This document shows positions 32,422 to 64,000 of a DNA stretch of 64,000 nt, one piece after another. The position numbers and the translations under genes were made by a program. The DNA lies in contig NZ_CP039543.1 of NCBI RefSeq assembly GCF_013085545.1, positions 806,001 through 870,000 on the forward strand, written 5' to 3'. The notes beneath the pieces were generated by a model. That model did no database searches, was not told the origin of the DNA, and worked only from the letters and a program-made list of their open reading frames with translations. The DNA is from Oceanidesulfovibrio marinus. GTDB taxonomy: Bacteria; Desulfobacterota; Desulfovibrionia; Desulfovibrionales; Desulfovibrionaceae. Each line of letters begins with the position of its first letter. Within the stretch, counting starts at the first letter, position 1.

Positions 32422-32781
32422 TGGTGGAGGCGGGGGGAGTCGAACCCCCGTCCGAGAACGTTCCACAGTGAGCTTCTACAGGTTTAGTTCGCGATTTGAT
32501 CTCATCGCGGCGGCGCCCACGAACAGGCTCCTGCCGCGACCAGTTCACCAAAGTGTCTCGCCCCCGCCGTGGCGAACGCCGGCGGGAACCAGCCCGATAA
32601 GGGTGTCATTCCAAAAGCGTATCGGGCGTCAGCCCTCGGAATGTGGCAGCGTTAGTTACGCAGCCAGAGCGTAATCGTAGTCGTTGTTGGCAACTATCGG
32701 TTTGCCGCTTTTTAACGAGGCCAGCGGCGCCTCGACCTGCGACTCCTGCTTCCGCATCCCCGTCGAAACCAGTGCGCCCCC
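32422..32781 (-). ncRNA. ssrA: Transfer-messenger RNA
   Basis: A 360-nt tmRNA that rescues stalled ribosomes and tags the unfinished peptide. The 5' end GGGGGCG (from 32781) and the 3' end CGCCTCC-ACCA (to 32422) form the acceptor stem. TGGTTTCGACGGGG follows the 5' strand and the T-arm GGTTCGACTCC precedes the 3' end. The tag codons are at 32656-32691 and encode ANNDYDYALAA followed by TAA. The CCA is encoded. The 3' end is the attachment site of the adjacent island, and the gene function is preserved. Confidence 0.95.
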
Positions 32782-48331: not shown

Positions 48332-48898
48332 ATGTATTCGACGAAAGATTTCAAAGGCGGACTCAAGATTGAATGGGACGGCACGCCCTACGAGATCGTG
48401 GAAGCCAGCCACTACAAGCCCGGCAAGGGCGGCGCCTTTGTGCGCACCAAGCTGCGCAACATGCTCACCGGCGGCATTGTGGAGAACAACTTCCGCTCCG
48501 GCGAGAAGGTTGGCAAGCCGGACATGGAAACCCGCGCCATGCAGTACCTCTATAAGGACGGCGACGACTACGTCTTCATGGACATGAGCTCCTACGAGCA
48601 GGTCCACATCAATCCGGACCAGGCCGGGGACAAGGGCGGCTACCTCAAGGACGGCCAGGAGGCCAAGGTCCTGTTTTACAACGGCCAGCCCCTGGATCTG
48701 GAAATTCCCGTGTCCACCGTGCTGGAAGTGGTCGAGACCGAGCCCGGCGTGAAGGGCGACACGGTGTCCAGCACGTTCAAGCCGGCAACCATGGAGACCG
48801 GCCTCACCATCCAGGTGCCGCTCTTCATCAACATTGGCGACCGCATCAAAATCGACACCCGGAGCGGGAGCTACCTCGGCCGGGAGGGGTCTGCCTAA
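48332..48898 (+). CDS. efp: Translation elongation factor P
   Basis: EF-P helps ribosomes through polyproline stretches. The 188-residue protein has three beta-barrel domains, with the tip lysine K32 in KPGKGGAF, the site modified by EpmA-type enzymes in other bacteria, and the C-terminal signature [16 protein letters not shown]-like ([15 protein letters not shown]). The downstream ftsK gene encodes a Pro/Glu-rich linker that would need EF-P for translation. It is followed by ftsK after one base. Confidence 0.96.
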
Positions 48899-48899
48899 A

Positions 48900-51581
48900 A
48901 TGCCCCGGGCGGCAACGCCGGATATGCAGGCTACTTCATCACGACACAACGGACTCGGCCGGGACATTCTCGGTCTCGCCTGCACCTTCCTTGCGTGCTT
49001 CCTGCTGCTGGGGATCGTCACCTACCATCCGCACGACCCGAGCTTCTCCCAGGTCGTCTCGCCAGGCGCAAAGGTGCACAATGGCGCGGGGCTTGCCGGC
49101 GCATACATAGCCGGCATCCTCGTGGATCTTTTTGGTGTGGCGACCTACGTGTTCCCGGTGGTGTTCATTGTCCTGGCGCTCAAAAATTTCATCCATCGGT
49201 TGAAGTTTCCCTGGTGGCGCTGGGTAGGCCTTGCTGTCTTCGCGCTAGCTGTTGCGGAACTTTCCTCTACTGCTCTGGCCGGAATAACCATAGGCAAGAT
49301 CACGGGCGGCGGCTTTTTCGGCCAGCTCCTTGGTGAGTGGATGAGCTACGTGCTCGGCCCGTGGGGTGCGCGCATCCTTGCCGTGGTGGGATTTTTTGCC
49401 GCAGTGCAGCTTTTGGCCGGAAACATCTGGGCGCCGCTTTTTGCGCCGCTCACGACCTCGGTGGGCGATTTCTTCTCCAAGTACCAGGAACGCAGCAAGC
49501 GCAAGGAGCGGTTGAAGAAGCTCCTCAAGACTCTGGAGAAGGAAGGCGGCGATCCTACGCCCGAAGAGATCGAGGCGCGCCTGGCCCGGTTGGAGCAAGA
49601 GGAGCAGGACGAGATTGCCGGCGCCGAGTCATACATTGGGCCTGACGCTGACCAGGACGACGATGACGAGCCGCATCCTTATATACAGGAGCAGGGTGAG
49701 TCCGAACCGGAGTCGTGGGACAACGGCGCGGATGACGACGAGCCCATGGACCTTGGCGTGGCCGAGCCGGCCGATGACCAGCCGGACATCATCAGCGGCG
49801 ACGAGCTGGATGAAGAAAATTACGACGAGGACTATGACGAGGATGACCCCATCTTCGCCCTGGAGCGGCTGCGCCGTAGCACCCGTCCGGAGGTGGAGGT
49901 TGAGCCGGGGGTGCAGGAAGTCGAAGTGCCCTGGGAGCCGGAGCCCGCTCCCCAGCCCAAGGCTGCTCCCGCGCCTGAGCCGGTGCCAGAGCCAATGCCA
50001 AAGCAGGACGCCGGAGACGTGCCGGTCAGCAAGCCGCGCGCATCCACGGGCGAGGGCCGCGACGTGGTCATGGAAGGGCAGATAGACCCCGAGGCCGACC
50101 TGGTCCGCGAAAAACCGCTCAGCGAGCGGAAGCTCAAGAAGCTCATCCTGCCGCCCAAGGACATCCTCGCCTCGGTGGAAGGCGACACCAAGTCCACGCC
50201 CACGGAGGAGCTGCGCCGGCAGGCCCAGGCGCTGCACACCACGCTGCAAGATTTCGGCGTGCAGGGCGAGGTCTCCGCCGTACGGCCCGGCCCTGTAGTC
50301 ACGCTGTTCGAGTACAAGCCGGCCCCGGGCGTGAAGATATCCAAGATAGCGAACCTCACGGACGACCTGGCCCTGGCGCTCAAGGCCATGGCCATCCGCA
50401 TCGAGGCGCCCATCCCAGGCAAGGACTCGGTAGGCATCGAGATTCCCAGCAAGTACCGCCAGACGGTCCACTACCGCGAGGTTCTGGAGTCCGGCGCGTA
50501 CGCCAAATCAGAGTCGCTGCTCACCCTGGTCCTGGGCAAGGACATCGAGGGCGAACCCTGCGTGGCCGACCTGGCCAAGATGCCGCACCTTCTGGTGGCC
50601 GGCGCCACGGGCACTGGTAAGTCGGTCTGCCTCAACGCGCTTTTGCTCTCCATGCTCTTCAAGGCCAAGCCCAGCGAAGTGAAGATGCTCCTGGTGGACC
50701 CCAAGCGCATCGAGCTCGCGGTCTATGCCGACCTGCCGCACCTCATCCATCCCGTGGTCACGGAGATGAGCCACGCCAAGAACGCCCTGGAGTGGGCCGT
50801 GCACGAGATGGACCAGCGCTATCAGGCCATGGCCAAGCTCGCCGTACGCAACATCTCTGGATACAACGCAAAGCTCAAAACGCTTACGCAGGAGCAGCGC
50901 ATCGCCCTGGACAACCCGGAACCCATTCCCTACCTCGTCATCGTCATCGATGAGCTCGCGGACCTCATGCTTATAGCGGCCAAGGAAGTGGAGATGTCCA
51001 TTGTCCGGCTGGCGCAGCTGGCTCGCGCAGCGGGCATCCATATGATCCTGGCCACCCAGCGGCCCAGCGTGGACGTGGTCACCGGCCTGATCAAGGCTAA
51101 CTTCCCCTGCCGCATCTCGTTCCAGGTGACGTCCAAACACGACTCCCGGACCATCCTCGACACGGTGGGCTCGGAGCATCTGCTGGGCAAAGGCGATATG
51201 CTCTTCAAGCCGGGCGGAGGGAAATTACAAAGAATTCATGGCGCTTTTGTAAGCGACGAGGACGTGGCATCCGTTGTAGGGTTCTGGAAGAGTCAAGAAA
51301 AGCCGTCCTACTCCATGGACTTCTCAAGCTGGTCATCCGAAGGCGGCGAGGAGGGCGGCGGCGAGATCGGCCCCGGCGAGATGGACTCCGACCAGAAGTA
51401 TCTGGACGCCGTGGACTTTGTGACCAGCCAGGGCAAGGCGTCCATATCGCTGCTGCAACGCCGTTTCCGCATCGGCTTCAACAAGGCGGCCCGCTACATC
51501 GAGCAGATGGAGGTGGACGGCATTGTGGGACCGGCGGACGGCTCCAAACCGCGACCCGTGCTGCGCGGACGCGGCGAATAA
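48900..51581 (+). CDS. ftsK: DNA translocase FtsK
   Basis: FtsK is anchored at the septum and pumps DNA to align the terminus for XerCD recombination at dif. The 893-residue protein has four membrane helices (about residues 25-185), a long acidic Pro/Glu-rich linker (about 200-410), the motor domain with Walker A GATGTGKS at 568-575 and Walker B IVIDE with D684-E685, and the C-terminal gamma winged helix (QGKASISLLQRRFRIGFNKAARYIEQME). ATG 48900 starts one base after efp stops, so translation is probably coupled. lolA begins nine bases after its stop. A dif-like site and xerD lie nearby. Confidence 0.95.
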   Translation: MPRAATPDMQATSSRHNGLGRDILGLACTFLACFLLLGIVTYHPHDPSFSQVVSPGAKVHNGAGLAGAYIAGILVDLFGVATYVFPVVFIVLALKNFIHRLKFPWWRWVGLAVFALAVAELSSTALAGITIGKITGGGFFGQLLGEWMSYVLGPWGARILAVVGFFAAVQLLAGNIWAPLFAPLTTSVGDFFSKYQERSKRKERLKKLLKTLEKEGGDPTPEEIEARLARLEQEEQDEIAGAESYIGPDADQDDDDEPHPYIQEQGESEPESWDNGADDDEPMDLGVAEPADDQPDIISGDELDEENYDEDYDEDDPIFALERLRRSTRPEVEVEPGVQEVEVPWEPEPAPQPKAAPAPEPVPEPMPKQDAGDVPVSKPRASTGEGRDVVMEGQIDPEADLVREKPLSERKLKKLILPPKDILASVEGDTKSTPTEELRRQAQALHTTLQDFGVQGEVSAVRPGPVVTLFEYKPAPGVKISKIANLTDDLALALKAMAIRIEAPIPGKDSVGIEIPSKYRQTVHYREVLESGAYAKSESLLTLVLGKDIEGEPCVADLAKMPHLLVAGATGTGKSVCLNALLLSMLFKAKPSEVKMLLVDPKRIELAVYADLPHLIHPVVTEMSHAKNALEWAVHEMDQRYQAMAKLAVRNISGYNAKLKTLTQEQRIALDNPEPIPYLVIVIDELADLMLIAAKEVEMSIVRLAQLARAAGIHMILATQRPSVDVVTGLIKANFPCRISFQVTSKHDSRTILDTVGSEHLLGKGDMLFKPGGGKLQRIHGAFVSDEDVASVVGFWKSQEKPSYSMDFSSWSSEGGEEGGGEIGPGEMDSDQKYLDAVDFVTSQGKASISLLQRRFRIGFNKAARYIEQMEVDGIVGPADGSKPRPVLRGRGE

Positions 51582-55161: not shown

Positions 55162-56101
55162 GAATACCTCGCATAGATATATGGTGGATGTATCCAGCCA
55201 CTTTGCCACCATGCCCCAAAAAAGCAACAGCATCAAAAGGGCGGGAGGATGAGCATGGGGGGCGGGCAGATCCAGATGCGCGGGAATAGAGCAGGTGGGG
55301 ATAGCTCCGGGAAAGTACTTCTGGGGTTAACTGTGCAAGTACAGTAATAGTGTATACACAGGCTCGTCAAATGTGACCTTTATTCACGATTAGCGACCGC
55401 AGTGACCGATCGACTCCCTAGGACGATGCTCGCTCGGGCCAAGAACAGCCGTCGTTTTTTGGAAGAAATATTAAACAATTCAAGTTAGTAATGACTTTTG
55501 CGAGATCCATACTATGAATACACAAAGGCACTGGGGTTGAGAGGCAGAAAGTTTTTCGCTCAGAGGAATAGCAAGCGTCAATGGGTAGTACGTATATATT
55601 GAACTAACGGCACACACCTCGCTGGCGCGTATGGAATAAGTGGATTACTTGGTATACGTTAAAACCGTACGAAACGAGGCTGCTACAAAGGTAAAGACTA
55701 CCGACCTTTGGAATCTTTCCTCGATCAGCGTTTGACCAGAATCGAGGCCGGTCATCCCGGCTGTCTATCGTGAAGTTCTCAATATGCTGTTGACGTTGTG
55801 GCTTGATGGCGTGGACAGCCAGGAGCTTGCTCACGCAGAGCTCTCCGAACAAGTCGGAATGGAAAGAATCGAATATGACTTCTAAGACTCAGCGTCGCGC
55901 CGCAGTATGATCTGGCCATGCTTGTGGACGAGATGGTAATCATCGTCTTGGTGGATAATCTTCGAGACTGGCGACATTAATGGCAGATGATATTTTACGG
56001 CAAATCATTGCTTGGTGTATCTGATGGGCACGAGCATGTTCAGAGTGCTGGGCGCTTCCGAGCCGGACACCAAGTTTGGCTCTCACACTGCGTGTTTGTT
56101 T
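55162..56101. other. Gene-poor region upstream of the dif candidate
   Basis: About 940 bases with lower GC than the flanks and many stop codons in all frames. A short plus-strand reading frame ending near 55885 (IPAVYREVLNML to RIEYDF) could be the tail of a decayed gene, but I recognise no family. I see no RNA gene. Another 190 bases without genes follow the dif candidate. Confidence 0.4.
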
Positions 56102-56129
56102 ATGTCTCATAATGTAAATTATGTTAACT
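56102..56129 (+). other. Candidate chromosome dimer resolution site (dif)
   Basis: A 28-bp site with an 11-bp left arm ATGTCTCATAA (XerC side), 6-bp centre TGTAAA and 11-bp right arm TTATGTTAACT (XerD side). Against E. coli dif it matches 6 of 11, 5 of 6 and 10 of 11 positions. The inner arms form the dyad CATAAT/ATTATG. It lies in a non-coding stretch 4.5 kb from xerD and 4.5 kb from ftsK. Confidence 0.65.
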
Positions 56130-56322
56130 TTAGTATGTGAGAGATTGCTCTCCTCAAGTTTTCGCCGTGTCGAGCCGTCTCGTTTAAAAAAGCCTGCGCC
56201 ATGATCAATCTATCGTGATCTGTCCATTCCGGCCTTCTCTGGGCAAAATACGAAGCCGAATTTTTCTCAATATTCCGGGCCTTACACCGATCGCTCGTTC
56301 CAGGCGCATTTCTGAGCCTGGC

Positions 56323-56955
56323 TCAGTCGTGTTCGAGACTTCTCAGATAGGCGCAGAACATGTCGGCCATGGCGTCGGCGTAGGTTTCGATCTCTTCGGG
56401 AGATCGAGGGCTTTCCGAAAAGTTTTTACCGCCCGAGCTGAGCGTCGCTGTGATCAGGTCGGCCGCTAGCGCGCGGGTCGCATCCGAGGCCGTGGGCAAC
56501 GCCTCCCGCATGAAGACCATGACGATGTCGTCTTCGGATGCTCTCGCTTCCTTCGCCTCAGGCGCATCACGATAGTACGGCGCCGCATCATTAAGCGCCA
56601 CGCGCATCTCGGCTTCCTCGCATTCCGAGCGAATGAAATCGTGCACCAAGGCGCGCAGCCGTTCAAGCGGCGGTCTCCGGTCATCCTCCAGGATGCTGCG
56701 CAGCAACGCGGTCGTTTGCCGCCATTCGTCGCTCTGGAGTCGAAACAGGATCGCTGCCTTGTTCGGAAAATATTGATACAGCGACCCGACGCTGACCCCG
56801 GCCTTTTCGGCCACCCGCGCCGTGGTGAAACGCTGTATCCCTTCCTTGGCTAAAACCTGAACCGCAGCCTCCAAGATGACGGAGACAAGCTCCGTAGAAC
56901 GAGCTTGCTTTGGCTGTTTTCGTAAAGAAATATCACTAGTTGGATGGTCAGTCAT
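56323..56955 (-). CDS. TetR family transcriptional regulator
   Basis: A 210-residue repressor. The N-terminal helix-turn-helix is clear (TTARVAEKAGVSVGSLYQYFPNKAAIL near residues 42-68). The C-terminal helical domain is of the type that binds unknown ligands. ATG 56955 is preferred over the longer frame. It is divergent from the methyltransferase gene, 96 bases away, and probably regulates it; tttaagcc (57004-57011) and ggcttaaa (57045-57052) form a spaced inverted repeat between them. Confidence 0.88.
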   Translation of the reverse strand: MTDHPTSDISLRKQPKQARSTELVSVILEAAVQVLAKEGIQRFTTARVAEKAGVSVGSLYQYFPNKAAILFRLQSDEWRQTTALLRSILEDDRRPPLERLRALVHDFIRSECEEAEMRVALNDAAPYYRDAPEAKEARASEDDIVMVFMREALPTASDATRALAADLITATLSSGGKNFSESPRSPEEIETYADAMADMFCAYLRSLEHD

Positions 56956-57051
56956 ACGCGATGTCCCCAATGCGAATTGTGAATCTGAATAATCAGTCGT
57001 ATTTTTAAGCCGACCTGAAAAAGGAGTCAACTTTTTAAACCGGAGGCTTAA

Positions 57052-57714
57052 ATGACCACCCTGACTACCACCCCCCTTGCTCCGTTGCTGGAAAGTTTGT
57101 TCAAGAGCGCGGAGGAAACTTCCCAGGAGATGATCCTCGCGGCGGCAAACCTCTCCGATGGAGAGCGGGCTCGGCTTATGCGGAGCAAAACCGATTATCA
57201 GGACTTTTACGGACGGCTGAAAGACTTTCCCCTCGCCGTCTCGCGAGAGACAGGCACCCTGCTCTACATGCTGGCGCGGAGCTGCGGCGCGCGGTCGATC
57301 GTCGAGTTCGGAACCTCATTCGGCATCTCGACTCTGCACCTTGCCGCGGCGTTGCGGGACAATGGCGGCGGACGTCTGATCACCAGCGAGTTCGAGCCGT
57401 CCAAAGTGGCGCGGGCAAAAGAAAACCTGACGTCCGGCGGGCTCATCGACCTGGTGGATATCCGCGAAGGCGATGCGTTGCAAACATTGAGCGTCGACCT
57501 TCCGGAATCGATCGACCTGCTCCTTCTCGATGGCGCCAAAGCGCTCTACTCCGAGGTTCTGAGCCTGGTGGAGAGCCGTCTCAGGCCGGGGGCGCTCATC
57601 ATCGCCGACGATGCAGACTACAGTCCCGACTACCTGGCGCGTGTGAACTCGCCAACAGGAGGCTACCTGTCCACACCGTTCGCCGAAGACATCGAGCTGT
57701 CCATGCGGCTCTAA
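57052..57714 (+). CDS. Class I SAM-dependent O-methyltransferase-like protein
   Basis: A 220-residue methyltransferase related to catechol/caffeoyl-CoA O-methyltransferases. The SAM-binding motif I is IVEFGTSFGISTLHLA near residue 83; acidic motif II is ITSEFEP; the catalytic region LLLLDGAKALY and ADDADYSPDY follow. GGAGG lies just before the ATG. The adjacent divergent TetR repressor likely controls it. The substrate is unknown, possibly a phenolic or foreign compound. Confidence 0.87.
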   Translation: MTTLTTTPLAPLLESLFKSAEETSQEMILAAANLSDGERARLMRSKTDYQDFYGRLKDFPLAVSRETGTLLYMLARSCGARSIVEFGTSFGISTLHLAAALRDNGGGRLITSEFEPSKVARAKENLTSGGLIDLVDIREGDALQTLSVDLPESIDLLLLDGAKALYSEVLSLVESRLRPGALIIADDADYSPDYLARVNSPTGGYLSTPFAEDIELSMRL

Positions 57715-58463: not shown

Positions 58464-58772
58464 TCAGGCGTTTTCTTTCTGCGCGCTGGCCGTTTGGGAC
58501 TCGGTCTGCGCGGAATGGCCCTGGTCCAGGCGTTTGATGTACTTGTCCCGACACTCGAAGCTGCAGAAACGGTGCACCTTGTCTCCTTCACGCACGCGGA
58601 TGTCGCTGTCCACAGAGACGTAGGCGCCGCAGACCGGGTCCTGGACCATCTCGCCGCGGGAAGCGCTCTTGACCTGTTCCTTGACCTTGGTGTCCTTCTT
58701 TTTCTTCTGGTCGTTCGCAAACATGCGATACAGCAGGAACGCCGCGCCGATTATGATGACGAATTTCAGCAT
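58464..58772 (-). CDS. YHS/TRASH-type metal-binding membrane-anchored protein
   Basis: A 102-residue protein with an N-terminal membrane helix (LKFVIIIGAAFLLYRMF), a lysine-rich linker, and a cysteine motif DPVCGAYV-HRFCSFECRDKYI typical of YHS/TRASH metal-binding modules. The spacing of the three cysteines suggests binding of copper or zinc. It starts 12 bases after folK stops, so it may be in the dapL-folK unit. Confidence 0.8.
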   Translation of the reverse strand: MLKFVIIIGAAFLLYRMFANDQKKKKDTKVKEQVKSASRGEMVQDPVCGAYVSVDSDIRVREGDKVHRFCSFECRDKYIKRLDQGHSAQTESQTASAQKENA

Positions 58773-58784
58773 CTCGCCTCCTTT

Positions 58785-59294
58785 TTATTGGCGGATGACA
58801 TCATTATGGACACGATACTGCAATCCGGCAAGGGCTTCGCTCAAGCGAGTGCCGTCCGGCAGCACCAGCTCCGGCGCAATGTCCAGAAGCGGCACCAGCA
58901 CAAACGCCCTGTCGCGCATGCGCGGATGCGGCAGCGTGAGCCGCGGCGTCTGCATGCGCACCTGGTCGAACAGCAGCAAGTCCAGGTCAAGGGCGCGCGG
59001 TCCGAATCGGATCTCCCACGAGCGATCGCGGCCCAGCTCCATCTCCACGGCCTGCAGCACATTCAACACGTCTTCAGGCGTCGTCGTTGCGTTATCAACC
59101 GGCCGGAACGCGGCCACCTGGTTCAGGAACCATGGCTGGGCGCGCACGTGTTGCGGCTCGGTCCGGTACATGCGCGAGGCGCGTTCGAGCGTCAAACCGC
59201 CGCGCTGGGCAATACGCTTCAGCGCGGCGGCGATGGTCGCTTCGGGCGGGCCTGCTGGCCCGGCTATGTTGGCGCCCAGGGCGACGTAGATCAC
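58785..59294 (-). CDS. folK: HPPK, 2-amino-4-hydroxy-6-hydroxymethyldihydropteridine diphosphokinase
   Basis: FolK transfers pyrophosphate from ATP to the pterin precursor in folate synthesis. The 169-residue protein has the family signatures: ALGANIAGP at the start, RFGPRALDLDLLLF with the metal-binding Asp pair, and LPHPRMRDRAFVLVPL. The start codon is GTG, overlapping the dapL stop as GTGA, so it is translationally coupled to dapL. Confidence 0.95.
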   Translation of the reverse strand: MIYVALGANIAGPAGPPEATIAAALKRIAQRGGLTLERASRMYRTEPQHVRAQPWFLNQVAAFRPVDNATTTPEDVLNVLQAVEMELGRDRSWEIRFGPRALDLDLLLFDQVRMQTPRLTLPHPRMRDRAFVLVPLLDIAPELVLPDGTRLSEALAGLQYRVHNDVIRQ

Positions 59295-60463
59295 AGTGTT
59301 TTGATCCGCTCCACCGCCTCCATGAGGCGCGGGGTGTCAATGGTCAGGGAGATGCGGAACCAGCCTTCGCCGGGCTCGCCGAAGCCGTTGCCAGGGGTGA
59401 GCACAACGCCCTTTTCCTGGATCACGCGGCTGACGAACTCGGCCGACGAGCCGTAGCCCTTGGGCACCTTGGCCCAGATATAGAAGGTGGCCTTCGGCTC
59501 CACATACTCGATACCGGCCTCCTTGAGCGCGGCCAGCACGGCGTCGCGGCGCTCGCGGTACACGGCGCGGAACTTCTCGGTGTAGGGCGCGCCCTGCTGC
59601 AAGGCCACGATGCCAGCCTGCTGCACGGCCTCGAAGGCGCCGGAGTCCACGTTCTCCTTGACCTTGCCCAGGCCCTTCACCAGCGTGGCGTTGCCTACGG
59701 CCATGCCCAGGCGCCAGCCGGTCATGTTGAAGGTCTTGGACAGGGAGTGGAATTCGATGGCCACGTCCTTGGCGCCGGGAATCTCCAGCACGGACATGGG
59801 CTTGTCGGCTTCGTCGTAGTACACCTCGGTGTACGCGGCGTCCTGCATCAGGATCACCTCGTATTTGCGGCACAGGCCAACGAGCTTCTCGAAGAACTCG
59901 CGCGGCGCAACAGCCGAGGTTGGGTTGTTCGGATAGTTCACGTAGATCATCTTGGCGCGGCGCCAGGTCTCCTCGCTCACCTTGTCGAGATCCGGGAGGA
60001 AGTTGTTTTCCTCGTACAGCGGCAGGAACTCCACTTCGCCGCCCAGGAAACCGGCCGCCACAGGCGGCACCGGGTAGTTGGGCGTGCACACCAGGGTCAG
60101 ATCGCCGGGATTGATAAATGCCAGTGGGAAGTGCGCGATGCCTTCCTTGGAGCCGATCAGGGTGATGATCTCGGTCTTGGGGTCGAGATCTTCCACGCCG
60201 AAGCGTGTTTTGTACCATTCGGCCACGGCCTCGCGGAACGCGAGCAGGCCGACATACGAGGGATAGCGATGGAAGCGCGGGTTGCGCGCCGCCTCGCACA
60301 TGGCGTCGATGATGAAATCGGGCGTGGGCAAGTCGTTGTCGCCAATGCCCAGGCTGATGATGTCCACGCCGCGCGCCGCGACCTCGGCCTTGATCCGGTC
60401 GATCTCGGCGAAGAGATACGGCGGCAGCGTCTCAATCCGCTTGGCAAACTTGAAATTCGACAT
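59291..60463 (-). CDS. dapL: LL-diaminopimelate aminotransferase
   Basis: A 390-residue PLP-dependent aminotransferase that makes LL-diaminopimelate directly from tetrahydrodipicolinate, a short lysine/peptidoglycan route used by many Desulfobacterota. The PLP lysine is in SLSKTFNMTGWRLG, the substrate loop begins GIGDNDLPTPDFI, and the IYVNYPNNPTSA motif is typical. ATG 60463 with AAGGA eight bases upstream is preferred; GTG 60469 is the alternative. folK overlaps its end. The dapL assignment over a general aminotransferase rests on the pattern of these motifs. Confidence 0.87.
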   Translation of the reverse strand: MSNFKFAKRIETLPPYLFAEIDRIKAEVAARGVDIISLGIGDNDLPTPDFIIDAMCEAARNPRFHRYPSYVGLLAFREAVAEWYKTRFGVEDLDPKTEIITLIGSKEGIAHFPLAFINPGDLTLVCTPNYPVPPVAAGFLGGEVEFLPLYEENNFLPDLDKVSEETWRRAKMIYVNYPNNPTSAVAPREFFEKLVGLCRKYEVILMQDAAYTEVYYDEADKPMSVLEIPGAKDVAIEFHSLSKTFNMTGWRLGMAVGNATLVKGLGKVKENVDSGAFEAVQQAGIVALQQGAPYTEKFRAVYRERRDAVLAALKEAGIEYVEPKATFYIWAKVPKGYGSSAEFVSRVIQEKGVVLTPGNGFGEPGEGWFRISLTIDTPRLMEAVERIKTL

Positions 60464-60698
60464 GTTCACTTTCCTTGTCTGGATTGCGCGGATTCTGCAA
60501 AATCGCGCGGATTGTCAGGTTCTGATAGACGGTAACGTTCTGGATACGCACCCCTGGGAATGCTGTCCAATATAATGATGGGCAGCCATCCATACTGGAA
60601 TGCTATGGATGACGTCGCCGCACAGACGTCATTGTCTACAACCGCGGATTTTCCTAGAATAGGTTTTTTAGAACTGTCAACATCGTGCCCGAGCCTCC

Positions 60699-61622
60699 AT
60701 GCCCCAACCCCCTGCCCCTGAATCCCCAAGCGACGCCGTCTCTTCCCCGCTGCTGGACCGCTACCTGGAGCACCTGCTCGTGGAAAAAGGACTGGCCGAG
60801 CGCACGCTGGAATCCTACACCCACGACCTCGGCACCTTCCTCGCCTTCCTGCAGGAGCGCGGCTCCAGCCTGGAGGATGTGGATGAGGACTCCCTGCTCT
60901 ACTATATTGTCCGCGAACGCGCGCGGGGCATGAACTCGCGCTCCATGGCGCGGCGATTGTCCTCGCTCCGGGGCTTTTTCAGCTACCTCTTCGACGAGCA
61001 GCTTCTGCCCGCCAACCCGGCCGAGAACCTGGAAAACCCCAAGCTCACGCGCAACCTGCCCAACGTGCTCAGCATCGAGGAGATCAGCGCCCTGCTCGGC
61101 GCTTGCGACCTCTCCACCAAGCTCGGCTTTCGCGACCGCACCATGCTTGAGCTCCTTTACGCCGCCGGTCTGCGCGTCTCGGAGCTCATCTCCCTGCGGC
61201 CCCTGGACTATGATCCCCAGGCCGGTCTCGTCAAAGTCTGGGGCAAGGGCAGCAAGGAGCGGATCGTCCCCATACACGACATTGCGCAGGATTTCCTCAA
61301 CGAGTACTTGAAGTCCTGGCGCAGCTCCTTTTCCCCGGTGGAAGACGCCGCCTTCCTCAACCGCTCGGGCAAGGGGCTCTCCCGCGTGGCCATCTGGAAG
61401 ATCATTCGCAAGTACGCGGCCCAGGTTGGCATCACCAAGGATATCTCGCCGCACACCTTCCGCCACACCTTCGCCACCCATCTCCTGGAAGGCGGCGCCG
61501 ACCTCCGTACCGTGCAGATCCTCCTGGGCCACGCCGATATCAGCGCCACCGAGATCTACACCCACGTCCAGGCCCACCGCCTGGCCGCCATCCATCGCGC
61601 CCATCACCCGCGGAGCCAGTGA
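60699..61622 (+). CDS. xerD: Tyrosine recombinase XerD
   Basis: XerD works with XerC at dif to resolve chromosome dimers. The 307-residue protein has an N-terminal SAM-like domain (about residues 15-110) and a catalytic domain with R159, K183, H252, R255, H278 and Y287 in GLRVSEL, KGSKER, SPHTFRHTF, LLGHA and IYTHV. It has a Pro-rich N-terminal extension of about 15 residues. The EIYTHV ending and absence of adjacent phage genes mark it as the housekeeping type. A dif candidate is 4.5 kb away. Confidence 0.92.
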   Translation: MPQPPAPESPSDAVSSPLLDRYLEHLLVEKGLAERTLESYTHDLGTFLAFLQERGSSLEDVDEDSLLYYIVRERARGMNSRSMARRLSSLRGFFSYLFDEQLLPANPAENLENPKLTRNLPNVLSIEEISALLGACDLSTKLGFRDRTMLELLYAAGLRVSELISLRPLDYDPQAGLVKVWGKGSKERIVPIHDIAQDFLNEYLKSWRSSFSPVEDAAFLNRSGKGLSRVAIWKIIRKYAAQVGITKDISPHTFRHTFATHLLEGGADLRTVQILLGHADISATEIYTHVQAHRLAAIHRAHHPRSQ

Positions 61623-61812: not shown

Positions 61813-64000
61813 ATGTCCAAGAAGAAAAAGAAGGAGCGCATCAAGGCGTCCGTTGTGATAACCGCGCATGTCAACGCAGACTTTGATTGTCTGGCGGCGA
61901 TGATCGCTGCGAGCAAGCTGTACGAGGGCGCGGCCCTGGCCTTTCCCGGCAGTCAGGAGAAGAACCTGCGCAACTTCTTCATCCAGTCGGCTACGTATCT
62001 GTTCAACTTCCAGAACCCGCGGGACATCGACCCGGACAGCGTGGAGACGCTGGTGGTGGTGGACACGCGGCAGCGGTCACGGCTGGCGCACGTGGAGCCG
62101 ATTCTGGAGCGCGCGGACAAGGGCGAGGTCAAAGTGCACGTCTGGGACCACCATCCGGACTCCAGCGAGGAAGGCGAGGACATCGCCTATGACGACGGCG
62201 CCGTGGTGTTCTGGGGATCGGCCACGGCCATTCTGGTGGACCGGATCGAGAAGCGCGGCATCCGCCTCACCGAGGACGAGGCCACGATGATGGCCCTGGG
62301 CATTTACGAGGATACGGGCTCGTTCACCTTCGCCTCCACCACAGAGCACGACTTTCTGGCCGGGGCGTATCTGAAGAGCCAGGGCATGGACCTGAACGTG
62401 GTGACGGACATTCTGCACCGCGATCTTACGGCCGAGCAGATTTCCATCCTCAATGACCTGCTGGAATCGGCAGTGACGCACGAGATCAACGGCGTGCCCG
62501 TGGTGGTGGCCGAGGTCGCCATTGACGAGTTCATGGGCGACTTCGCCTTGCTCGCGCACAAGCTGCTGGAAATGGAGAATATCCGCGTGCTTTTCGCCCT
62601 GGGCATGATGCGCGACCGCGTCCACGTGGTGGCGCGCAGCCGTACTCCGGATGTGGACGTGAGCGTGATCTGCAAGTCTCTGGGCGGCGGCGGGCACGAG
62701 TTCGCGGCCTCGGCCACGGTGAAGGACCGCACCCTCACCCAGGTCAAGGACGAGCTCTTCGCCCTGCTCTACTCGCACATCAACCCACAGCGCCTGGTGC
62801 GCGACCTGATGACCTCGCCGGTCATCTCCATCCACGAGGACGAGCCCATCGACGCGGCCGTGGAGATCATGACGCGGTATGGCCTCAAGGCCTTGCCTGT
62901 GTTGGCACGGGAGAACGACTCCTGCGCCGGCATCCTGGACCACGCCACCGCGGACAAGGCCAAGGCCCACGGCCTGGGCCAGGTGACCGTGGACGCCTAC
63001 ATGGCCCGCGACTGCCAGGTCATCAACCCGGCCAGCGACCTTTACCCGGTCATGGAGATCATTGTGGGCATGGGCCAGCGGCTGTGCCCGGTGGTGGAGG
63101 ACGGCATGGTGGTCGGCGTGGTCACGCGTACGGACCTCATCAACCACCTTATCGAGGAGCCGGCGCGCATTCCCGAGACCCTGCTGCCGGAACGGCGGTC
63201 CAGGGAGCGCAGCATCCGCTCGCTGATGCGCGAACGGCTGTCCGAGCACCGGCTGCAATTGCTGGAGGAAGCCGGCCGCCTGGCCGAGTCCATGAACCAT
63301 CAGGTATTTGCCGTGGGCGGGTTCGTGCGCGATCTTCTGCTGCGGCGCGACGTGCTGGACATGGACCTCGTGGTGGAGGGTGACGGCATCGCCTTTGCCC
63401 GGGCCCTGGCCAAAAAGCTGGGGGGACGCGTGCGCGCGCACAAGAAGTTCCGCACGGCGGTCATCGTGTACACGCCGCCAGGGGAAGGCGAGAACGGCCT
63501 GCCGCCGGAAGAGCAGAAGGTGGACGTGGCCACGGCGCGTCTGGAGTACTACGAGTACCCGGCCGCCCTGCCCACGGTGGAGCTTTCGTCCATCAAGATG
63601 GACCTCTTTCGCCGGGACTTCACCATCAACGCCCTGGCCGTGCAGCTCAACCCGGAAGACTTTGGCCGGCTCGTGGACTTCTTCGGCGCGCAGCGCGACA
63701 TCAAGGAACGCGTCATCCGCGTGCTGCATTCGCTGTCCTTTGTGGAGGACCCCACGCGTATCCTCCGCGCCATCCGCTTCGAGCAGCGCTTCCACTTCCG
63801 CATCGGCAAGCAGACCACCCGACTCATCAAGAACGCCATCCAGCTCAAGCTCGTGGACCGGCTCTCGGGCGCGCGGCTCTTCAACGAGCTCAAACTCATG
63901 CTGCGGGAAAAGGACTTCCTGCTGGATCTGTTGCGCATGGAGGAGTTCGACGTGCTCAAGGCCATCTACCCGGCCTTCAGCATGAACCAGCGCGTGGAGA
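61813..64000 (+). CDS. tRNA nucleotidyltransferase with DHH and CBS domains (3' end outside window)
   Basis: 729 codons are visible; the gene continues past base 64000. A DHH phosphoesterase domain (about residues 12-310) has AHVNADFDCLAAM, VVVDTR, WDHHPD at 111-116 and GGGGHE at 291-296. Two CBS domains follow (about 325-465; SIHEDEPIDAAVEIM and VVGVVTRTDLINH). The nucleotidyltransferase head starts near residue 497 with FAVGGFVRDLLLRRDVLDMDLV. This fused form is known from several phyla and usually adds A, or CCA, to tRNA 3' ends. ATG 61813 starts a lysine-rich N-terminus; the ribosome binding site is weak. Confidence 0.9.
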   Translation, partial: MSKKKKKERIKASVVITAHVNADFDCLAAMIAASKLYEGAALAFPGSQEKNLRNFFIQSATYLFNFQNPRDIDPDSVETLVVVDTRQRSRLAHVEPILERADKGEVKVHVWDHHPDSSEEGEDIAYDDGAVVFWGSATAILVDRIEKRGIRLTEDEATMMALGIYEDTGSFTFASTTEHDFLAGAYLKSQGMDLNVVTDILHRDLTAEQISILNDLLESAVTHEINGVPVVVAEVAIDEFMGDFALLAHKLLEMENIRVLFALGMMRDRVHVVARSRTPDVDVSVICKSLGGGGHEFAASATVKDRTLTQVKDELFALLYSHINPQRLVRDLMTSPVISIHEDEPIDAAVEIMTRYGLKALPVLARENDSCAGILDHATADKAKAHGLGQVTVDAYMARDCQVINPASDLYPVMEIIVGMGQRLCPVVEDGMVVGVVTRTDLINHLIEEPARIPETLLPERRSRERSIRSLMRERLSEHRLQLLEEAGRLAESMNHQVFAVGGFVRDLLLRRDVLDMDLVVEGDGIAFARALAKKLGGRVRAHKKFRTAVIVYTPPGEGENGLPPEEQKVDVATARLEYYEYPAALPTVELSSIKMDLFRRDFTINALAVQLNPEDFGRLVDFFGAQRDIKERVIRVLHSLSFVEDPTRILRAIRFEQRFHFRIGKQTTRLIKNAIQLKLVDRLSGARLFNELKLMLREKDFLLDLLRMEEFDVLKAIYPAFSMNQRVE

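Follow-up and report, generated by a model that had tools for sequence, protein, structure and literature searches.

We found that the 28-bp sequence at positions 56102-56129 of the window is, judged from its sequence, almost certainly the chromosomal dif site of Oceanidesulfovibrio marinus, and that the recombinase gene xerD lies close to it, as in most of the related genomes in which the two could be placed. The window is the whole stretch of 64,000 nucleotides that was analysed and corresponds to genome positions 806001-870000. The site is unique in the genome, sits where GC skew and the polarity of KOPS-like motifs switch and is conserved in relatives, and the same genome carries genes for FtsK, XerD and a XerC-like protein. 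The dif assignment is as firm as a sequence allows. The site itself is of the ordinary, classical type; its neighbourhood with xerD recurs as a genuine pattern across the genomes sampled.

Sequence and conservation of the dif site

In E. coli, dif is the XerCD site for the resolution of chromosome dimers. The 28-mer of O. marinus, ATGTCTCATAATGTAAATTATGTTAACT, had been proposed as its counterpart, and its parts are as follows.

56102-56129, + strand: predicted dif site; 21 of 28 positions identical to E. coli dif, 27 of 28 to the published dif of D. vulgaris and 26 of 28 to the consensus of 58 sites; core unique in the genome
56102-56112, + strand: XerC-side arm (arm names by analogy with E. 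coli)
56113-56118, + strand: spacer
56119-56129, + strand: XerD-side arm
56130-56131, + strand: TT directly 3' of the 28-mer, invariant in all nine family members of the alignment

All 28-mers of the window were compared with the E. coli dif sequence. The similarity of 21 out of 28 was borne out; the next best 28-mer reached 17 of 28, and the other strand of the site itself 19 of 28. By eye, the XerC-side arm agrees with E. coli dif at six of 11 positions, the spacer at five of six and the XerD-side arm at ten of 11, so that the arm and spacer lengths and the good XerD-side match of the original prediction also held. The outer part of the XerC-side arm has diverged from E. coli dif, yet it agrees with the consensus of the relatives. 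A 28-bp site, two 11-bp arms, a 6-bp spacer and conserved inner arms, the features by which a dif site is recognised, are all present. Its location in a non-coding stretch was confirmed as well, since none of the ORFs of at least 80 aa listed in the window overlaps 56102-56129. An ORF of 82 aa in the same gap (55604-55852) had no Pfam match at E 0.001.

Among the 59 genomes of the order, own genome included, the 20-bp dif core was found with at most three mismatches in 56, a few poor matches among them, while the reversed pattern, used as a control, gave 12 matches in nine of the 59. Two further genomes of the same family, overlooked by the phylum-wide pattern, have a site with three mismatches. 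The consensus TTGTCTCATAATGTAAATTATGTAAACT was built from 58 sites that come from overlapping loci of relatives, with some genomes represented twice, a few three-mismatch sites and one site from outside the order (G161). Between about 55.0 and 57.9 kb, the same-genus genome G001 aligns to the window solely over an exact match of 30 bp at dif. The published dif site of D. vulgaris Hildenborough (PMC2731167) has equal arm and spacer lengths and differs from the site in the window only at position 6, with C in D. vulgaris and T in O. marinus. Table 1 of the same paper (Carnoy and Roten 2009, PMC2731167) places the D. vulgaris site about half-way round the chromosome.

A single site at the replication terminus

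With up to three mismatches, the 20-bp core occurred once in the window, compared to no occurrence in 100 dinucleotide shuffles, and once in the whole single-contig genome of 4,761,435 bases. A looser pattern of 26 positions was found at ten places genome-wide: at dif with one mismatch and at nine others with three mismatches, one of which is dif on the opposite strand; the reversed-pattern control gave 13 matches. The search for further copies that had been suggested as a check revealed no better dif site elsewhere, and this possibility was rejected on the single core and on a looser pattern no richer than its reversed control. The dif site is single copy and intergenic.

GC skew was determined from 61 sampled segments with a total of 1.254 Mb of the 4.76 Mb. 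From about 3.29 Mb, across the contig ends and up to about 0.86 Mb, the skew is mostly positive; between 0.87 and 3.25 Mb it is mostly negative. Some 10-kb bins deviate from this and carry the opposite sign. The cumulative G-C maximum was located at genome position 862147 (256 kb sampled over 714-972 kb, with one 2-kb gap), 18 bp beyond the end of dif at 862129. The skew switch that was expected of a terminus was found in these segments at the site itself and lies opposite the origin.

The octamer GGGNAGGG, the KOPS of E. coli, was combined with three octamers chosen from segments outside 700-1000 kb to give a KOPS-like set. In the sampled terminus region, 59 matches on the + strand and eight on the - strand lie to the left of dif, and four and 57, respectively, to its right. 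Altogether, 116 of the 128 matches have the expected orientation; a sign-test value for this polarity overstates the certainty, as overlapping neighbours are counted among the 128. The best single switch of polarity falls between 859637 and 863256 and brackets dif. In the window, GGGNAGGG alone behaves in the same manner.

4705-47702, + strand: ten KOPS-like GGGNAGGG octamers to the left of dif, from the motif search of the window

One further copy to the left of dif is on the - strand (29627), and to the right there are none on the + strand and two on the - strand (60710 and 63566). The motifs on both sides converge on the site, which is the polarity that was looked for. Together with uniqueness and the skew switch, this supports both the identity of dif and the position of the window at the terminus. 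A comparison of dif orientation with replichore polarity in five relatives was dropped as uninformative; dif orientation carries no skew information because the skew pattern of the terminus is identical on either strand.

Two other origins of the 28-mer have to be weighed. It might be a chance match, which is practically dismissed by its absence from 100 shuffles and by the conservation of the site in relatives. It might also be an attachment-site mimic, such as an IMEX att site or a plasmid dif-like site, rather than the chromosome's own dif. The lower GC content of its surroundings would fit with such a mimic, and so would the adjoining pair of a TetR-type and a methyltransferase gene, for which G001 has no matching DNA at this place. 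However, an integrated element would leave two dif copies flanking it, whereas the genome holds one copy, and IMEX and plasmid-type sites were rejected on this ground. Moreover, skew and KOPS polarity switch at the 28-mer and the site is present in most relatives, which makes an attachment site very improbable.

Replication origin and two dnaA genes

A search of the genome for the DnaA family identified two genes; the domain was matched at 358 and 3270691. The genes are located at C1:1-1389 and C1:3270391-3271671 (loci L016 and L097), and the contig starts at the first of them. The dnaA gene at 3.27 Mb, which encodes 426 aa and starts at 3270391, coincides with the switch from negative to positive skew and is followed by ORFs that were named, by eye only, as dnaN-, gyrB- and gyrA-like. 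Since the skew switch and these ORFs lie at 3.27 Mb, the dnaA gene at the contig start is not at the skew origin. Counted from the skew origin, the two arms to dif measure 2.353 and 2.408 Mb, a 49.4/50.6 split. Counted from the contig start and its dnaA gene, dif would misleadingly fall at 18% of the chromosome. A terminus elsewhere, deduced from the dnaA gene at contig position 1, was rejected on the skew and on the second dnaA gene with its dnaN-, gyrB- and gyrA-like ORFs. The dif site fixes the terminus, and via the skew the origin, of a chromosome whose record begins at an off-origin dnaA gene.

Xer and FtsK genes around dif

The genes on the two sides of dif are listed here.

48834-51581, + strand: ftsK, DNA translocase with 4TM, alpha, motor and gamma domains, directed toward dif; Pfam PF13491, PF17854, PF01580 and PF09397, all above cut-off
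56323-57030, - strand: TetR-type regulator; family matches all below cut-offs
57052-57714, + strand: O-methyltransferase-like gene, beside the TetR-type gene, between dif and the conserved block
58464-58772, - strand: gene for a small protein matched marginally by a zinc-finger-type family (PF06467, 24.2 bits, cut-off 22.4); block member
58785-59294, - strand: folK (TIGR01498, above cut-off); block member
59291-60469, - strand: LL-diaminopimelate aminotransferase-like gene, on the dif side of xerD (NF006756, 608.4 bits, cut-off 507)
60699-61622, + strand: xerD, tyrosine recombinase, directed away from dif (NCBIfam TIGR02225, 361.5 bits, cut-off 329.6)
62077-63795, - strand: gene without family assignment beyond xerD; block member conserved in 19 of 20 relatives

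The xerD and ftsK genes lie on opposite sides of dif at distances of 4.57 and 4.52 kb, respectively, whereas in E. coli they are scattered. Two full-length Xer proteins are encoded in the genome. With the XerC model, the XerD protein reached 307.7 bits, under the cut-off of 335.15. The second Xer gene is 448 kb away, at genome positions 1310740-1311666; XerC is the best equivalog of its product with 320.2 bits, so that this protein is closest to XerC though below the curated XerC cut-off of 335.15. XerD, a XerC-like protein and an FtsK with a gamma domain, the protein set of a dif system, are all encoded. MatP was not found in the O. marinus genome; it was found in one of 14 control genomes (E. 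coli only), and its absence is usual. Neither Pfam nor NCBIfam gave a match to the product of 62077-63795 at the thresholds applied.

The TetR-type regulator and the O-methyltransferase-like gene form a divergent pair directly beside dif. No DNA match to their interval (56323-57714) was obtained at the same place in G001, and the pair is possibly a local insertion. A tmRNA gene is located at 32422-32781 of the window on the - strand and specifies the tag ANNDYDYALAA.

The O. marinus system has the site architecture, the XerD-side arm, the polarity of GGGNAGGG, the FtsK gamma domain and two Xer proteins in common with dif/XerCD/FtsK of E. coli. By analogy with the established E. coli pathway, FtsK of dividing cells would load on the KOPS-like octamers and pump DNA toward dif from both sides until it meets XerC and XerD, each presumably bound to one of the two arms of synapsed dif sites. 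FtsK would then activate XerD, and the ensuing strand exchange, a recombination at dif, would convert a dimeric chromosome into monomers before division.

Linkage of xerD and ftsK to dif in other genomes

In the order, 54 genomes (own included) have a usable dif site and a best XerD match, and in 41 of them both are on the same contig. One dif match per genome, that with the fewest mismatches, was taken (in G057 by resemblance to the sites of its family), and three matches of G049 with three mismatches each were left unused. In 37 of the 41 same-contig genomes xerD is within 10 kb of dif, with gaps of 0.2-7.8 kb, and in all 41 it is directed away from dif, against the direction of the fork. 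Adding G128 and G154, where xerD is about 75 and 101 kb from dif, gives 37 of 43; if all split-contig genomes are counted as unlinked, 37 of 56 remain. A dif contig of more than 1 Mb is known here for nine genomes, a set free of draft-contig bias, and in seven of these xerD and dif are within 10 kb of each other. The exceptions in the order are G006 (19 kb), G010 (23 kb), G017 (71 kb), G128, G154 and G043 (155 kb). None of the five genomes of one family (f3) has a same-contig pair.

Both features occur in 72 genomes outside the order and share a contig in 17. In one of the 17 (G161), and in none of the nine single-contig genomes among these, xerD lies within 10 kb of dif. The phylum sample comprised 118 genomes, four of them from the family of the window (own included); the pattern used gave 12 reversed-control matches in the 118 genomes, and some of the outside sites may be chance matches. 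Where a genome had several matches, one was taken; G167, with two equal matches, was excluded, and the xerD search gave nothing at the threshold in G097, G123, G151 and G163. Fisher tests gave 0.002 (7/9 vs 0/9) and 7e-9 (37/43 vs 1/17), values that are descriptive only as the genomes are related.

Three side observations concern individual arrangements. In G161, a distant phylum member, a dif-like site lies 30 bp from a Xer gene (locus L198, around 10001). G043 (L190) has a XerC-like gene about 9 kb from dif instead of xerD. Relative to xerD, dif is oriented in the opposite direction in 31 and in the same direction in six of the 37 linked genomes (L150-L169 among the loci), and the genome of the window belongs to the six.

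Block genes were counted in 20 relatives that were chosen for having xerD near dif. All 20 have folK and the small-protein gene between dif and xerD, 19 carry the gene distal to xerD, and 13 have the aminotransferase gene as a neighbour of xerD. Within about 10 kb on the opposite side of dif, yedF was found in seven, lolA in six, rluB in five and ftsK in two of the 20. In the family of the window, 19 genomes carry ftsK on the contig of dif, 13 of them within 15.3 kb of the site. G015, added by hand, counts as unlinked, its ftsK being about 2.3 Mb away on that contig. All 13 near-dif ftsK genes are directed toward dif, and in the 11 of these genomes that have xerD on the contig ftsK is always on the side opposite xerD. 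In five genomes of other families ftsK is about 47 kb or more from dif.

A named collection of 44 loci, each of at most 8 kb and many with short flanks, gave a xerD match in nine. Eight of these are long (at least 267 residues aligned) and closer to XerD; the ninth, from Catenovulum (L114), is a doubtful piece of 37 residues closer to XerC. The small-protein gene or folK is present in seven other loci. L110, L130 and L146, which are of Desulfovibrio type and include 3.5 kb or more on either side of dif, show no block gene at all.

Why xerD stays near dif

Neutral conservation of a terminus block explains the linkage at least as well as selection does. We lean towards plain gene-order conservation, in which an ancestral block of the small-protein gene, folK, the aminotransferase gene, xerD and the gene of unknown family would remain at the terminus because inversions centred on the terminus keep the distances to dif. 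The near-constant presence of folK, the small-protein gene and the far gene in the 20 relatives, albeit chosen for linkage, points in this direction, and in the exceptions G010 and G006 the block can leave dif together with xerD. However, these 20 genomes show less conservation on the opposite side of dif, and in the seven that lack the aminotransferase gene beside xerD, xerD is still near dif.

It is possible, though rather unlikely, that selection keeps xerD and, in the family, ftsK near dif, for example by having XerD and the membrane-anchored FtsK made late and near their site of action. The difference between the order (37 of 43 within 10 kb) and the outside genomes (one of 17) is consistent with selection, as are the outward direction of xerD in all 41 same-contig genomes and the XerC paralog 448 kb away in O. 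marinus. The failure to find MatP in this genome would fit too, though MatP was found in just one of the 14 controls. Against selection stand the six of 43 genomes with xerD 19-155 kb from dif, the five genomes of f3 and the loci L110, L130 and L146; moreover, synteny of the whole block accounts for the pattern without it. More tentative still, and on balance improbable, is the proposal that the XerCD system of the Desulfovibrionales is a selected, terminus-anchored locus, composed of dif, an outward xerD and, in the Desulfovibrionaceae, often ftsK on the other flank, where XerD and FtsK might for instance be made beside the septal dif in cells without MatP.

Comparison with known Xer systems

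In XerH/difH of the Epsilonproteobacteria and XerS/difSL of streptococci and lactococci, the recombinase gene is near the terminus site, as it is here; however, PMC2731167 and PMC5357621 describe these as systems of a single recombinase with an atypical site, whereas O. marinus has a classical dif with XerD and a XerC-like protein. The archaeal xerA gene adjoins dif in some species, comparable to xerD here, but XerA is a single recombinase with variable linkage, unlike the two Xer proteins of O. marinus (PMC5357621). Kono et al. (PMC3025954) describe a different general trend, in which xerC is mostly found in the vicinity of dif and xerD close to the origin. In the open-access literature, judged by title and start of the abstract, no report of xerD-dif linkage in Desulfovibrionales was found.

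Recombinase-site proximity is named as a possible hallmark of single-recombinase Xer systems in the review PMC5357621. The recurrent xerD-dif neighbourhood in genomes with two Xer proteins bears on this statement. The Desulfovibrionales offer an opportunity to test if it matters where a recombinase gene lies with respect to its site.
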